This document shows, one piece after another, positions 4,805-52,088 of a DNA stretch of 64,000 bases. The stretch's first letter is position 1; the number at the start of each line of letters is the position of its first letter. A model generated the notes under the pieces. It was not told the DNA's origin. It saw only the letters and a list, made by a program, of their open reading frames with translations, and did not search any database. Source of the DNA: an uncultured Bacteroidota bacterium (lineage in GTDB: Bacteria; Bacteroidota; Bacteroidia; B-17B0; Aurantibacillaceae); the NCBI GenBank assembly GCA_903834765.1, contig CAILKE010000057.1:1-64000 (forward strand), read 5' to 3'. Made by a program: the position numbers and the translations under genes.

Positions 4805-6577
4805 ATGGAAAATCAGTTTAATGTGTCAAAAAATAGTAAAGAAAGAGGGAGTAATCATCTTCCGAAATCTCCTTTTGAAAACATTGCTATTTCATTATCA
4901 GGAGGAGGCTATAGAGCCACGTCTTTTCATTTAGGCACTATGTCCTATTTGTCTTCTAAAACGTGGTTGGGAATTAGTTTATTAGAGCGAACACGCATAC
5001 TATCAACTGTATCGGCTGGAACTTTCGTAGGCATAAAATATGTGACTACCTTAAAAAAGGGAGGTACTATCAAAGATTGTTACAAAAGTGTATACGATTT
5101 TATGTCTCATTGTGATTTAGTAACAGAAGCGCTTCAATATTTATCGAAAGACGAAAACTGGTTAGAAGGAAAACAGAGGTCGTTAATCAATTCATTTGCT
5201 GCTATTTATTATGAAAAATTTGAATCTGAAACATTTAATTTAATTTGGGATGAGAAGATTAACATTCATTTAAAAGAAATTTGTTTTAGTGCTACAGAAT
5301 TTAATTTTGCTTTACCTTTTTATTTTACTAAAACAGAAAAACCATCAAGTACCCAAATACATCATGAATATATAGGGAATAAAAAAATTCATATTCCCAT
5401 TGATGTTGCAAAAGAAATTCGTTTATCTGATATCATTGCCTCTTCATCTTGTTTTCCATTTGGCTTTGAACCCATTAACTTTCCCGATGATTTTGTGTAT
5501 TCGGGAGCTGTTAAATTAATGGACGATACATTGTTACCAAGACATGCTCACGAAGGCGATCAAATTCATTATCCGATAGGTTTAATGGACGGCTCGATTG
5601 ATGATAATCAGGGGATTGATGCTGTGGTATTAGCCGAAGAACGCATGAGGCAGTATTCTCCAGAGTTAAAAGACATACGTTCTCACGATCATAAGGCAGT
5701 TGATTTATATATCGTTTCTGATGTTTCGCCTCCCACTATGGAAAGTTTCATTAGAAGTACCAATAATAAAATTCCATATATTGGTAATTGGAATTTTGGC
5801 AGCTTACAAAACTTCGGACTATGTAGCGCTATTATTGGAGTCTTTTCTATTTTACTTGCCTCTTATACAAGTTCAAAAGTTTCCATCATTGTGTTATCTA
5901 TTTTTGGAACGGTTAGTTTAATGTTAGCCTTAGTACTGCTAATATTTTCTAAAGGCATTACAGGCTTAACGAAACGATTTGGGGTATCTGATTATGAATT
6001 AAATAGAATCTTACACTTTGATAAATTAAAATTTGGAACCTTATATAATTTATTTATCAATAGGAGTCGATCTGGAATGAAATTAGTTTCGGAAGTATTT
6101 ATTAAACAAATGAAATGGTTTAGTTTGGAGCGCATCTATAGCGATTCTGCTTGGAAGCCTAGAGTAGTAATGAATGCTGCACGAAAACTTATTGACCATG
6201 AAGTGATTAAAAGAAGAAAAAAACATCATTACCTGCATAATGAATTATTAGAGCCTGGAGAAAAAATCATATTAGCCACCTCAAAGGCTAATACAAAGCT
6301 TACAACTCTTTGGTTTACGGATGAGGAATTAGCAGGTAAAGATAATATGCTTGACACCTTAATTGCCTGTGGGCAGTTTACAATTTGTTTTAATTTACTC
6401 GAGTATATTGAAAGAACCATTAAGAATGAATATTATGAGACTGATTATAATCGGTACGATCAAACTACTAAAACAGCTATAGAAGATTTACAAGCAAGTT
6501 TAATGGCCGATTGGATCAAGTTTAAAGAAGATCCTTATTGGATGGTAAACGAATGGAATACTAAGAGCGAATTGTAA
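4805..6577 (+). CDS. Patatin-like phospholipase with two central membrane segments
   Basis: The N-terminal half is a patatin-like acyl hydrolase: oxyanion-hole SLSGGGYRA (about 31-38), nucleophile elbow STVSAGT with Ser70, and dyad Asp262 in LMDGS. The elbow lacks the first Gly of GxSxG and the dyad reads DGS rather than DGG or DGA. Two hydrophobic stretches (about 337-355 and 358-382) suggest membrane anchoring, followed by about 200 residues I do not recognise. An in-frame TTG lies 17 codons upstream at 4754; I prefer ATG 4805 because the upstream residues are mostly hydrophobic and not patatin-like. Phospholipase or lysophospholipase activity at the inner membrane is the family-based inference. 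Confidence 0.85.
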   Translation: MENQFNVSKNSKERGSNHLPKSPFENIAISLSGGGYRATSFHLGTMSYLSSKTWLGISLLERTRILSTVSAGTFVGIKYVTTLKKGGTIKDCYKSVYDFMSHCDLVTEALQYLSKDENWLEGKQRSLINSFAAIYYEKFESETFNLIWDEKINIHLKEICFSATEFNFALPFYFTKTEKPSSTQIHHEYIGNKKIHIPIDVAKEIRLSDIIASSSCFPFGFEPINFPDDFVYSGAVKLMDDTLLPRHAHEGDQIHYPIGLMDGSIDDNQGIDAVVLAEERMRQYSPELKDIRSHDHKAVDLYIVSDVSPPTMESFIRSTNNKIPYIGNWNFGSLQNFGLCSAIIGVFSILLASYTSSKVSIIVLSIFGTVSLMLALVLLIFSKGITGLTKRFGVSDYELNRILHFDKLKFGTLYNLFINRSRSGMKLVSEVFIKQMKWFSLERIYSDSAWKPRVVMNAARKLIDHEVIKRRKKHHYLHNELLEPGEKIILATSKANTKLTTLWFTDEELAGKDNMLDTLIACGQFTICFNLLEYIERTIKNEYYETDYNRYDQTTKTAIEDLQASLMADWIKFKEDPYWMVNEWNTKSEL

Positions 6578-8111: not shown

Positions 8112-9449
8112 ATGCAAACATTGGAGCAATTACAAGCTGGTGAATTAGCAGGTTGTACTTCTGTCAAATTAGCTTGTGGCTTAACGGAGTTTCCCCGCGA
8201 ATTATTCAATTTAGCCGATAGCCTTGAATTACTTGATTTATCAGGTAATCAGCTATCTGCTTTACCAAGTGATTTTGGAAAATTTAAAAAATTAAAAATT
8301 GCTTTTTTTTCAGATAATTTATTTACAGAATATCCGGAAGTATTAGCGGATTGTCCATTGTTAGAAATGGTTGGGTTTAAAGCCAATCGTATTTCTTATA
8401 TTTCAGAAAAAGCGATTTCAAGTCATCTTCGTTGGTTAATCTTAACTAATAATTGTATTACACAATTACCGAAATCAATTGGAGAATGTAAACGTTTACA
8501 AAAATTTCCTTTAGCTGGTAATCAATTAACGGAAATACCAGAAGAAATGGCAATGTGCAGAAACCTTGAATTATTGAGGATCTCAGCAAATCATATCAAA
8601 GAATTACCCGAGTGGCTTTTAACCTTGCCAAAGTTAGCTTGGTTGGCTTATGCTGATAATCCTTGTAGTGAAATAAAATATAGCAGTCCAGTTCTGAAAG
8701 AAATTTCGTGGGATGAATTGATCATAAAAGAACAATTAGGTGAAGGAGCGTCAGGTATTATTTCAAAAGCAATTTGGAATAAAAAAGAACAACTAGAAAT
8801 TGCTGTTAAAGTATTTAAAGGAGAAGTAACAAGTGATGGCTTTCCATTAAGCGAAATGACAGCATGTGCAGTAGCAGATAATCATCAATGTTTAGTGACG
8901 CTTTTAGGTAAAATATCAAATCATCCGCAACAAAAAGAAGGTTTGGTTTTTGAATTAATTCCAACTGAATTTAAAAATTTAGGAAAACCACCAAGCTTTG
9001 AAAGCTGCACCAGAGACATATTTGAAGTTGGGACTGTTTTTTCTATAAAAGAATTGATAGACATAGCGATTCATTCTGTTTCTGTTTTAAGTCATCTACA
9101 TGATAAAGGAATTATGCATGGCGATTTTTATGCTCATAATTTAATGATTAATCTAAATTCGAGAACACTCTTAGGAGATTTTGGTGCTGCTACCTTATAC
9201 GATATATCATCTTCAAATGCCTATCTGCATGAGAAATTAGATATAAGAGCCTATGGTTGTTTGTTGGAAGATTTATTGGAACGTTTGGAAGAATCAGAAA
9301 TTAATGATGACTTAATGACTCAGTTAGTGAAATTAAAAAATGACTGTTTACATGAAATTGTTTCTCAACGCCCAAATTTAAAAGACATTAATAGCAGGTT
9401 AATTTCTTTTAAGTCGTTAAGCTCTTATACAGCAAGCGTTTCGCAATAG
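8112..9449 (+). CDS. Leucine-rich-repeat protein fused to a protein kinase domain
   Basis: Residues about 15-185 hold LRRs of the LxxLxLSxNxLxxLP type, for example LELLDLSGNQLSALP at 38-52. Residues about 203-435 are a eukaryotic-like protein kinase: glycine loop GEGASG (210-215), ATP-anchoring Lys233 in IAVKVFKG, helix-C Glu248, catalytic loop HGDFYAHN with Asp338 and Asn343 (HGD instead of HRD), and DFG at 356-358. All key residues are present, so the kinase is predicted active. No signal peptide or membrane helix is seen, so it is cytoplasmic. LRR-kinase fusions are common in plants but unusual in bacteria. Its 3' end overlaps a convergent unknown gene by 41 bp. The target is unknown. Confidence 0.88.
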   Translation: MQTLEQLQAGELAGCTSVKLACGLTEFPRELFNLADSLELLDLSGNQLSALPSDFGKFKKLKIAFFSDNLFTEYPEVLADCPLLEMVGFKANRISYISEKAISSHLRWLILTNNCITQLPKSIGECKRLQKFPLAGNQLTEIPEEMAMCRNLELLRISANHIKELPEWLLTLPKLAWLAYADNPCSEIKYSSPVLKEISWDELIIKEQLGEGASGIISKAIWNKKEQLEIAVKVFKGEVTSDGFPLSEMTACAVADNHQCLVTLLGKISNHPQQKEGLVFELIPTEFKNLGKPPSFESCTRDIFEVGTVFSIKELIDIAIHSVSVLSHLHDKGIMHGDFYAHNLMINLNSRTLLGDFGAATLYDISSSNAYLHEKLDIRAYGCLLEDLLERLEESEINDDLMTQLVKLKNDCLHEIVSQRPNLKDINSRLISFKSLSSYTASVSQ

Positions 9450-49098: not shown

Positions 49099-50736
49099 TC
49101 ATAATAGCGTTTTTCTATAAATCAATTTCATCATCTCTTCATCTTTTCGATACACATCAATGTAGAGTTTTAAACCCGTACTATCTGCTTCAGCCGTATA
49201 ATAGCGGGTAAATATTGGCAACTGTTTTCTGAGTTTTATTTTTCGTTGTTCCTGTTTGGCAAAATACACTTGCAAACTATCATGAGTGTAATGTAAACTA
49301 TCATCACGTATCAAAAAATCGGCAAATTCTGAGAACTTCTCAAGTCTAATACAGCCGTGGCTTTGCGAGCGATTGCTGGTTTTAAAATAACGTTTAGAAT
49401 TAGTGTCGTGTAAATAAACACCAAAAGGATTATTAAAATTGAACTTTACAATTCCCAAACTATTTTCGTCACCTATGCGTTGTCTAAACCTCACAGGTAA
49501 ATAATCTTGAGTATATCTTTTCCAAGGAATTTTAGTGTAATCCAATACCACATTGTGATTTCCTAAAACTTCGAAGTTTTTACGACGGATATATGAAGTA
49601 TCATGCTTAACGGCAGGTAAAATTTCTTTGGTTGCTATACTGATGGGCACATTCCAATAAGGATAAATGAGCATATGATCAATTTTGCTTTTTAGGATAG
49701 GTGTTTGATGATCTGGTTTACCACATACAATAGCTGATTGCATTACTACCGTATCTTTTTCAAAAACAGTTAGCCAAAATGCTGGTATATTTACAAAGGC
49801 ATAACGTTCAGGAAATTTAGGTTCTTCCCAACGCCAGCGTTCCATAGCCATCGCTATTTGTTTAATAACTTTAGCTCTGTTGTAACTCAATGCCTGTTGA
49901 GTATATTTTCCTAATTTCCCGTCGGGCTGAATGAACCATTTTTTTTGTAAACCATTTAATGCCTTTGCTAATTTGGTACTATCATTTTTTACAGAAGCAG
50001 TATCGTAAAGCCCTTGTTTAATTAAGTTTTTTATGATGAGTTGTTTTTTGAGTGCTGTATCTTTTTCTGTGACAAATGGTATAGAATCTAATTGGTACAA
50101 TAACGGATTATTTAGAATATTTGCTAATTCTTTTTTAAGCATTCTGTAACCATAATGCTTTGGTTCTAATGAATCTAAAGTAGCTTTGATATGTGCATTA
50201 GTATATCCAACTCTAAGTATACTATCCCAGCCTTTTACTAATTTATCAAAGTTTGTGTGTAATAATAAACTATCATTGTAAAAACGGCCTTTGTTCAAAT
50301 GCGCTCCTAACAAGTAATAAGCGTCACTCAATAATAAATCGGTTTTAACAAGAGCGGTTACGTTGATGTAATTTTTAGTAACAGAAATAGAATCTAATTT
50401 GTTTTTTATTTCAATCAAATGATAGTTATTAGGAATTAAACCATTGTAATCGCAATGCTTTATATAACTTAATAGACTGTCGCCTTTAGCTGTTATCGTT
50501 GCATGATTAAACCACAGTAAGTTATTGGTGTAATTAGGTTTAAAATAACGGTAACAAATCAATGAAACAGAATCGACTGTTATACTACTATCATTTGTTA
50601 AGTATTGTTCTAATTGGCTTTGAACCTCTTTATCTATATCTTGAGGTGTATTAATTTGTATAATTTTGTCAGGCTTCTTATCGTTATTACAAGCGATAAA
50701 AAATAACAGAATAGATATAAAAAAACAAAGCCTCAT
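49099..50736 (-). CDS. L,D-transpeptidase, YcbB/LdtD-like lipoprotein
   Basis: From ATG 50736 this is a 545-residue lipoprotein (MRLCFFISILLFFIAC, lipobox Cys). It has a long alpha-helical N-terminal region, a peptidoglycan-binding-like segment (WFIQPDGKLGKYTQQAL near 280), and a YkuD catalytic domain with SHGCIRLEKF containing the catalytic Cys (about 462). These enzymes cross-link peptidoglycan with 3-3 bonds or attach proteins. An upstream ATG at 50790 would add 18 residues and overlap the previous gene by 14 bp; it is less likely because the lipoprotein signal starts at the second ATG. The start codon lies within a terminator hairpin. Confidence 0.9.
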   Translation of the reverse strand: MRLCFFISILLFFIACNNDKKPDKIIQINTPQDIDKEVQSQLEQYLTNDSSITVDSVSLICYRYFKPNYTNNLLWFNHATITAKGDSLLSYIKHCDYNGLIPNNYHLIEIKNKLDSISVTKNYINVTALVKTDLLLSDAYYLLGAHLNKGRFYNDSLLLHTNFDKLVKGWDSILRVGYTNAHIKATLDSLEPKHYGYRMLKKELANILNNPLLYQLDSIPFVTEKDTALKKQLIIKNLIKQGLYDTASVKNDSTKLAKALNGLQKKWFIQPDGKLGKYTQQALSYNRAKVIKQIAMAMERWRWEEPKFPERYAFVNIPAFWLTVFEKDTVVMQSAIVCGKPDHQTPILKSKIDHMLIYPYWNVPISIATKEILPAVKHDTSYIRRKNFEVLGNHNVVLDYTKIPWKRYTQDYLPVRFRQRIGDENSLGIVKFNFNNPFGVYLHDTNSKRYFKTSNRSQSHGCIRLEKFSEFADFLIRDDSLHYTHDSLQVYFAKQEQRKIKLRKQLPIFTRYYTAEADSTGLKLYIDVYRKDEEMMKLIYRKTLL

Positions 50737-50761
50737 CTTTGTAAAGATAAGGCTTTGTTTT
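50722..50761 (-). terminator. Strong terminator hairpin overlapping the transpeptidase start
   Basis: AAAACAAAGCCT (50722-50733) is the exact reverse complement of 50750-50761. Inside, ATCTTT (50735-50740) pairs with AAAGAT (50743-50748), so nearly the whole 40 bases fold into one stem with a 2-base tip. On the minus strand the descending arm runs into TTTGTTTTTTTATA, a U-tract, matching a rho-independent terminator for the T9SS gene at 50777-51787. The ATG of the transpeptidase gene (50734-50736) sits inside the stem. Confidence 0.75.
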
Positions 50762-50776
50762 AAAGATAACTGAAAA

Positions 50777-51787
50777 TTACTTACTGACATTAAATTTTCC
50801 TGTGTTAATCACTTGGTTATTTTTACCAATAACTGTAAATAAATATAATCCGTTTGATAAAGGATGAACGTTCATTTTCGCTTTTCCAAATTCAACTAAT
50901 TCAGTAGCTACCATTTTCCCAGTTAAGTCATAAGCTATAACTTTAGAGGCTTCTGAGTTTGCTGTGTTAAAGTTTATAAAAGATGATGATGGATTAGGAA
51001 ACACACTTATCTCTGTATTTACTTGCTGTAATTCATTAATACCAACTGTTTGGTAATCTTTAAGAAGTGTAACTAACGTTTGTGTACTTGTGCCACCCAA
51101 AGTAGATTGAAGCGTAGATGTAGCTATTGATAAAATAGGTACTAATGATGCAGATGCTGAATAATAATTGTAAGTAAGTTGAGTAACTGTTCCAGGAGTT
51201 ATTGAGGAAGTAAAAGTTAATGCTTGAGAGGTAACAACTCTTAAAATATCGGTGTATGTTTTTCCTGGTAAGGTTAATGTGCCTGTAGCATCTGCAGTAA
51301 AGGCATTATTCCCTGTAAATGATCCTGGTATACCGCCTACAGTTAAAGATCCACCAACTGTTGCATTAGTTGCTGTTCCTATACTCATAGGATATTTCCC
51401 CATAATAGCTGGATAAGCATATATTAAATTAACAGAAAAAGCATTAATAAGTATATTTCCACCATAATATTTTAAAATATTAGACGATGATGTATAATAG
51501 GAATCATCAGAAGCAGATGCGCTTACATGAGTATAGGCATTAGGATATGCTGCGTTTGAATTATAACTTGATACGTATGTTTTAGAAATATTAGTATGGG
51601 CAGTAATAGAAGCAAAATTCCATGTTTGTCCTGCACCAGAAGCGCCGGGCGTTACGCCAGTTGAGTCACATTGATAAATAGTATATGCTGGATTCCATGG
51701 AGCTGGCACGCTTGTAGATTCCATTAATGTTTGAGCCTGAGTCGCAGTGCTGGTGATAATAGCTATAGATAATAATATTTTTTTCAT
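50777..51787 (-). CDS. Secreted protein with T9SS sorting domain
   Basis: The 336-residue protein has a signal peptide (MKKILLSIAIITSTATQAQ) and a Ser-, Thr- and Ala-rich body I do not recognise, including WNPAYTIYQCDSTGV near the N-terminus. The C-terminal about 85 residues, ISVFPNPSSSFINFN through NGLYLFTVIGKNNQ and NTGKFNVSK, are a type A T9SS sorting domain. It probably resides at the surface. It is followed on the same strand by the transpeptidase gene after a strong terminator. Confidence 0.8.
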   Translation of the reverse strand: MKKILLSIAIITSTATQAQTLMESTSVPAPWNPAYTIYQCDSTGVTPGASGAGQTWNFASITAHTNISKTYVSSYNSNAAYPNAYTHVSASASDDSYYTSSSNILKYYGGNILINAFSVNLIYAYPAIMGKYPMSIGTATNATVGGSLTVGGIPGSFTGNNAFTADATGTLTLPGKTYTDILRVVTSQALTFTSSITPGTVTQLTYNYYSASASLVPILSIATSTLQSTLGGTSTQTLVTLLKDYQTVGINELQQVNTEISVFPNPSSSFINFNTANSEASKVIAYDLTGKMVATELVEFGKAKMNVHPLSNGLYLFTVIGKNNQVINTGKFNVSK

Positions 51788-52088
51788 GAAGTATATAATT
51801 ATGTTTATTCAAATTTAAATAAAAGGATGGAGATAATCAATTATTATTTATCCGTAATTTCATATGTCTAAATTATTGTTTTTTATTTACCATATGGTAT
51901 AGCCAGTTTATCTTCTCCCGATAGCTATCGGGATGTGTTTGTGTTTCGGCAAACATGGCTATTTCATATGTCTAAATTATTGTTTTTTATTTACCATATG
52001 GTATAGCCAGTTTATCTTCTCCCGATAGCTATCGGGATGTGTTTGTGTTTCGGCAAACATAGCTATTTCATACATATAAGTTTTGGGC
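51788..52088. other. Intergenic region dominated by a 104-bp tandem repeat
   Basis: The 301-bp gap holds an A/T-rich leftmost part and the tandem repeat annotated at 51857-52072. No gene is seen. Confidence 0.6.
51857..52072. repeat. Two-copy 104-bp tandem direct repeat with an internal palindrome
   Basis: Positions 51857-51960 and 51961-52064 are the same 104-bp unit with one visible difference (ACATGGCT versus ACATAGCT at the end), and a further 8 bases (ATTTCATA) begin a third. Each copy contains the palindrome TCCCGATAGCTATCGGGA (51916-51933 and 52020-52037), which is more GC-rich than the surroundings. The near identity suggests recent duplication. Confidence 0.9.

Follow-up and report, generated by a model that had tools for sequence, protein, structure and literature searches.

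In protection of the IS10/IS50 type, read-through RNA that enters from outside folds back on the transposase start, whereas RNA from the internal promoter does not. Gene e of bacteriophage T4, like soc, 49, and I-TevI, has a late promoter inside a hairpin, on its 5' strand; in long early transcripts this hairpin sequesters the start region (PMC3014915). The short gene e RNA without the 5' strand has been shown experimentally to be translated, and similar leaders are predicted in related genomes (PMC3014915). Here, we describe a hairpin in a 64,000-nucleotide stretch of DNA from an uncultured Bacteroidota bacterium (the whole stretch is referred to as the window), where a gene with a type IX secretion (T9SS) sorting tail is followed on the same strand by the gene of a lipoprotein-type L,D-transpeptidase (LDT). 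Bacteroidota hardly use Shine-Dalgarno sequences. The -7 box of Flavobacterium psychrophilum is TAnnTTTG at -12 to -5, and leaderless messages make up 5.5% of its mRNAs with high-confidence start sites (PMC9723704). In B. thetaiotaomicron, about 3.7% of the 5' UTRs are under 10 nt (PMC7366714), and for F. johnsoniae a -33 element could reportedly not be identified (as cited in PMC7366714).

By mechanism, T4 gene e is the closest of these systems. In both cases RNA from upstream buries the start, and a short translatable RNA arises from a promoter located in the DNA that encodes the 5' strand; for LDT both steps are predicted. The LDT gene, however, is cellular, its hairpin has the form of a terminator with a U-run and encodes a signal peptide, the -7-like box in its stem predicts a leaderless message, and its switch is deduced from sequence. 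Membership of the gene e type is not claimed for the LDT hairpin because its promoter function is a prediction. The likeness to IS10/IS50 lies in read-through RNA that folds over the start and self-initiated RNA that stays free (both predicted for LDT), but the LDT locus has no mobile element and its hairpin is terminator-like. As in leaderless Bacteroidota mRNAs with TAnnTTTG, the candidate LDT -7 box ends 5 nt before the ATG; it differs in reading TTTA instead of TTTG, in lacking a -33 TTG, and in being embedded in a terminator-type hairpin. Among open-access titles and abstracts, none described a cellular gene with a single hairpin that combines terminator, promoter, and start codon; this result applies to those records and is not a claim of absence from print.

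Anatomy of the Hairpin and the Genes It Joins

A preliminary description of this DNA had placed a hairpin followed by a U-tract on the minus strand at 50722-50761 and the LDT ATG within its stem, and both observations are borne out. On the minus strand, the 5' arm (50761-50744) and the 3' arm (50739-50722) form 18 pairs, one of them G-U, around a 4-nt loop (50743-50740), and the structure begins 15 nt past the stop codon of the T9SS gene. At its foot stands a run of seven U (50725-50719, minus strand) that doubles as Phe codons of the LDT signal peptide. An 80-nt segment with the hairpin folds at -24.7 kcal/mol against a mean of -8.2 for shuffled sequences (z -7.5; none of 200 shuffles equals it). 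This stable, G+C-containing stem-loop with a U-run directly after it, located past a stop codon, has the form of a Rho-independent terminator, except that it extends over the start and opening codons of the same-strand gene that follows. The stem core occurs once in the 3.63-Mb genome, which rules out a repeat or mobile hairpin. An Rfam comparison of 50400-51100 gave only matches below the gathering score (RsaJ with 26.5 of 100 bits and MIR837 with 20.6 of 117), so that no known riboswitch or leader RNA is recognized here.

The LDT gene (49099..50736, minus strand) encodes 545 amino acids from 50736, with a YkuD domain (PF03734, E 1.1e-21) and a scaffold domain (PF20142, E 3e-21); no viral relatives of LDT were found. 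The preferred start codon (50734..50736, minus strand) belongs to the 3' arm, the remainder of which, together with the U-run, supplies codons 2-6, as had been described. Solely this ATG gives the compact lipoprotein signal peptide MRLCFFISILLFFIAC, with the lipobox Cys at codon 16. A start farther downstream is ruled out, since none of the window's codons that separate 50736 from the lipobox Cys is ATG, GTG, or TTG.

The T9SS gene (50777..51787, minus strand; PF18962, E 3.8e-10) ends with the stop codon 50779-50777. A consensus -7 box, TAAATTTG (51810..51817, minus strand), is found 22 nt ahead of its ATG. Upstream of this gene, a 104-bp tandem duplication (51857-52064, plus strand) has 99% identical copies, each with the palindrome TCCCGATAGCTATCGGGA.

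Conservation and Two Forms of the Junction

A search of the genome collection returned 28 loci, of which 17 (L001-L017) have a best-segment identity of at least 61%, and the family search found a match in 61 of 87 genomes. An orthologue is present in 18 of the 20 genomes of the window's genus, its own included; G077 has none, and G083 has only a 31% match. The comparison set consists of 19 sequences, namely the window, L001-L017, and L077 (a split gene in G081), with orthologues taken at about 60% identity or more. Loci L030-L046 were dropped because they lie on the same contigs as L001-L017.

The hairpin is found at the T9SS/LDT junction in all 19 sequences. A gene with a T9SS-type C-terminus lies upstream of LDT in the window and in 18 of 18 hairpin-bearing relatives, with L015 matching in the C-terminal part only, and in none of 40 other loci (some of them duplicates, several with about 1.5 kb of upstream sequence, and one, L021, beginning inside LDT). 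Twelve of the 18 pairs change on both sides, with 34 such cells compared to 9.7 after shuffling and 3-12 in slid controls, and the stem pairs are formed in 89.8% of the alignment cells compared to 78.4% and 35-56%, respectively; these pairing figures are indicative, as the shuffles ignore kinship, the structure was taken from the window, and the 19-sequence MAFFT alignment is slightly out of register at L003 and some others. Because the hairpin is present in 19 of 19 sequences and shows paired changes even though one arm and the U-run encode a signal peptide, its overlap with the LDT start is, on this comparative evidence, not a matter of chance.

The 19 junctions fall into two forms. In form A (n = 11: the window, L001, L002, L005, L008, L009, L014-L017, and L077), the stem contains the ATG, with TATnTTTA 5-8 nt ahead of it. 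In form B (n = 8: L003, L004, L006, L007, and L010-L013), the hairpin lacks TATnTTTA, an in-frame ATG lies at most 8 nt after the T9SS stop or overlaps it, and the entire hairpin is inside the open reading frame; the stems of L003, L004, L010, and L011 contain no ATG, and that of L012 has a GTG. In nine of the ten form A sequences other than the window, the stretch from the preceding stop to the stem is free of in-frame ATGs, and in L015 the sole upstream in-frame ATG is 42 codons up, inside the T9SS gene. A nearby upstream in-frame ATG thus accompanies the in-stem box in one of 11 sequences (the window) compared to eight of eight without the box (Fisher p 1.2e-4, kinship not corrected). The trade of box for ATG is seen in three independent phylogenetic pairs on supported branches, a number too small for a significant result (sign test, median p 0.25). 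In the LDT tree, in which many inner branches are unresolved and from which L077 was left out, the forms are interspersed with at least five changes, and the sister pairs L001/L003 and L004/L008 differ in form.

The stem forces AGG and CTT, which are uncommon in this genome (5.8% of Arg and 10.8% of Leu codons), and among the 11 sequences with ATG in the stem AGG is kept at codon 2 in nine and CTT at codon 3 in all. This fits a constraint on the nucleotides.

Form B brings up another reading of the window, which has a second in-frame ATG (50788..50790, minus strand) just ahead of the T9SS stop codon. A start at this ATG overlaps the T9SS stop by a few codons and adds 18 residues, giving a 563-amino acid protein with a longer signal peptide. 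The LDT gene could be co-transcribed and co-translated from here, with re-initiating T9SS ribosomes melting the hairpin, which would then act as a translation-relieved attenuator within the coding region. A start upstream of a translated hairpin is likely the state of eight related genomes: these eight of the 19 have their first in-frame ATG at the T9SS stop, no box, and the hairpin inside the reading frame, and the stem ATG is missing from four of these, with GTG in its place in a fifth. In the window, 50790 is open and in frame, and its context as a leadered start is better than that of 50736, which is poor (17th compared to 6th percentile of called starts), so that start-codon context failed as an argument for 50736. 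The earlier suggestion that ATG 50790 would put the hairpin within the coding region holds as to frame and signal peptide, but the ATGs of relatives in this position are not homologous to it. No in-frame start matching 50790 is present at the junctions of relatives, and 50790 itself derives from the conserved Asn-Val codons (AAT GTC) of the T9SS gene. The window moreover retains the in-stem box and stem ATG of the ATG-in-stem group, of which nearly all other members, as noted above, have no in-frame ATG ahead of the stem. For these reasons co-translation from 50790 is considered unlikely.

Three form B hairpins have a distinctive tip. The palindrome TCCGCCANNTGGCGGA, of the TCCGCCA..TGGCGGA type, forms the tip in both L003 and L013 and, apart from one mismatch, in L004. 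Exact copies number seven in the L003 genome and 11 in the L013 genome, the hairpin counted, and TCCGCCANNTGGCGGA occurs once elsewhere in the L004 genome and once in the window's genome. A repeated palindrome may possibly have replaced the tip and the -7 box in these three sequences.

Candidate Promoter and Predicted Burial of the Start Codon

The candidate -7 promoter box, TATCTTTA (50742..50749, minus strand), is located in the ascending arm and loop of the hairpin. Seven of its eight positions match the consensus TAnnTTTG or are free in it, and the last base is A where the consensus has G. The spacing known from F. psychrophilum predicts a transcription start at about 50737, one base ahead of ATG 50736. 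TATnTTTA stands at 5-8 nt before the ATG in 11 of 11 form A sequences and resembles the Bacteroidota -7 box at leaderless spacing. It is invariant save for one free position, and even the last A, which falls within the predicted loop, is kept, while the opposing bases are variable (at position -3 before the ATG, 7 A and 4 G; at position -4, 7 A, 2 C, and 2 T). Shared ancestry and pairing account for part of this conservation.

Promoter-box statistics were obtained from a 709-kb sample of this genome (window included) with 495 usable starts and three rearranged control patterns. TAnnTTTG ends 4-8 nt before 13 of the 495 starts (controls 0, 3, and 2) and lies 16-25 nt before 28 of them (controls 6, 8, and 4). 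TAnnTTTA is clearly enriched at 16-25 nt, where it precedes 43 starts (controls 14, 10, and 18), but at 4-8 nt it precedes 21, which is no excess over two of its three A/T-rich controls (6, 17, and 24), so that at this spacing the TTTA variant is no more than a candidate promoter in this genome. The sigma-A -33 element (TTTG/TTG) is absent from form A, as none of the 11 sequences has a TTG within 35 nt upstream of the in-stem box; in this genome, a TTG at 17-21 nt was found 42 times before 185 boxes. A sigma-70 promoter scan was not used because its model does not cover Bacteroidota promoters. Between the T9SS and LDT gene starts of form A, no strict TAnnTTTG recurs at one place, and the in-hairpin box is the sole recurrent candidate for an LDT promoter. 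TAnnTTTG recurs beside the start of the T9SS gene, about 1.02-1.09 kb upstream of the LDT start, in nine of 11 form A and seven of eight form B sequences, and the T9SS gene therefore probably has its own consensus promoter.

A second copy of TATCTTTA (50761..50768, minus strand), 24 nt before ATG 50736, is a rival promoter in the window. RNA from this copy would keep most of the hairpin (13 bp, -19.5 kcal/mol as predicted), and an LDT promoter placed in this way, just upstream of the hairpin, would put the structure on every LDT message, where it would work as an attenuator or RNA switch at the 5' end. About 11 of 19 members, on inspection by eye, also have a TAAATTTA-like string in the 3'-terminal part of the T9SS gene that could serve such a message, but it is explained by the Gly-Lys-Phe codons of that gene. 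Neither the string nor the second box is conserved across the 19 sequences; among the other ten form A members, only L014 has a TATnTTTA nearby, 29 nt before its ATG. With no Rfam family at gathering score and no alternative antiterminator fold evident for the hairpin region, an attenuator of this kind is very improbable.

Folding predictions separate the two kinds of LDT message in form A. In read-through RNA with 70 nt of upstream sequence included, the predicted probability that the AUG is unpaired is 0.001-0.002 in 11 of 11 sequences. The computed cost of opening the AUG together with the three preceding bases is 9.3-11.5 kcal/mol in read-through RNA compared to 0.2-2.5 kcal/mol in self-initiated RNA, again in all 11, and the self-initiated RNA of the window has no notable structure (z +1.06). 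The pattern of T4 gene e, in which RNA initiated upstream buries the start codon and self-initiated RNA leaves it exposed, is thus found in silico throughout form A. The double role proposed for the hairpin, ending transcription and hiding the start codon, is supported to this extent by the computed opening costs and by the compensatory changes in the stem. An LDT message that starts inside the hairpin had been named as an observation that would speak against this role. The comparison points the other way: such a start is likely the route of expression, because the -7-like box is kept exactly in those sequences whose likely start is the stem ATG.

These observations can be brought together in a model in which the T9SS gene at its 3' end and the LDT gene at its 5' end share one hairpin. 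In form A, polymerase from the T9SS promoter would mostly halt at the U-run, and the leftover read-through RNA, with the LDT AUG locked in the stem, would be little translated. The LDT promoter, with its -7 box TATCTTTA in the ascending arm, would give a leaderless or almost leaderless message from about 50737, without the 5' arm and with its AUG free. The hairpin would insulate LDT from its neighbor, and only self-initiated messages would be translated. In form B, co-translation would have replaced this logic, with the box lost and an in-frame ATG gained at the T9SS stop; LDT would be made from the T9SS message by ribosomes that continue past the T9SS stop and melt the hairpin. Termination, AUG burial, and an LDT promoter inside the hairpin, with co-translation in some relatives, form a model that we hold to be as probable as not on the sequences compared. 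We put forward somewhat more tentatively the full claim of a three-in-one hairpin (T9SS terminator, LDT promoter, and signal-peptide start) that lets only self-initiated leaderless messages be translated and that, within one genus, repeatedly switches to stop-coupled translation with its tip exchanged. The window fits form A, yet either form or both may operate there because ATG 50790 and the second TATCTTTA (50768-50761) are present.

A simpler account is that of a plain terminator which happens to overlap the start, with the LDT promoter near or within the stem and AUG burial of no regulatory value. Conservation of the hairpin does not need AUG burial, because hairpin and U-run are kept in all eight relatives whose likely start lies upstream of the stem, and U-runs easily encode Phe-rich signal peptides. 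Against this account stands the position of the ATG: the spacer ahead of the hairpin drifts freely, yet the ATG stays in the stem across the 11 form A sequences, and a shift of it beyond the stem is not seen. We consider a plain terminator improbable.

If the shared-hairpin model is true, a stop signal, a start signal, and protein code are packed into about 40 bases, and the position at which an RNA starts lets the cell distinguish a gene's own message from the read-through of a neighbor. This would give Bacteroidota a clear use for leaderless starts. The two forms alternating in sister species would be a natural experiment on how overlaps arise and break, and software for gene calling or terminator prediction would take one or other of the overlapping features for an error.

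Other Hairpins That Overlap Start Codons

The 709-kb sample, about 20% of the genome, contains 92 terminator-like hairpins, four of which overlap a called start, and the LDT hairpin is the most stable of these (-22.6 kcal/mol). On this sample, a general habit of the genome was rejected, as the other three overlaps are weaker or doubtful.

Among the 31 more distant or paralogous loci of the family, L063 and L072 (G025 and G027, of one other genus) have a different hairpin with a U-rich tail, located fully inside the N-terminal coding region of LDT (KKAPIKGALFF, KRAPQRGAFLFF). This is possibly an independent origin of the overlap; inspection by eye revealed no clear overlap of this kind in the remaining loci of that group.

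The rnpA gene starts with a GTG that is part of the 3' arm of a 9-bp hairpin, and the stop codon of the upstream gene falls in the 5' arm (L105, minus strand, G000:C4, about 127990; L121). By eye, this hairpin over GTG is present only in the window's genome and G077 among the 20 genomes of the genus, unlike the LDT hairpin. In L097 (minus strand, oriented 5320-5400), the ATG of a gene for a large secreted-type protein overlaps the stop of the previous gene, and a second ATG is found in a -13 kcal/mol hairpin in the signal-peptide region, a layout that resembles LDT. In L117 (plus strand, 8663-8702), a strong hairpin lies over the first ATG of a membrane-protein reading frame, for which a downstream TTG start looks likelier, with a TAnnTTTA box 7 nt before the TTG.
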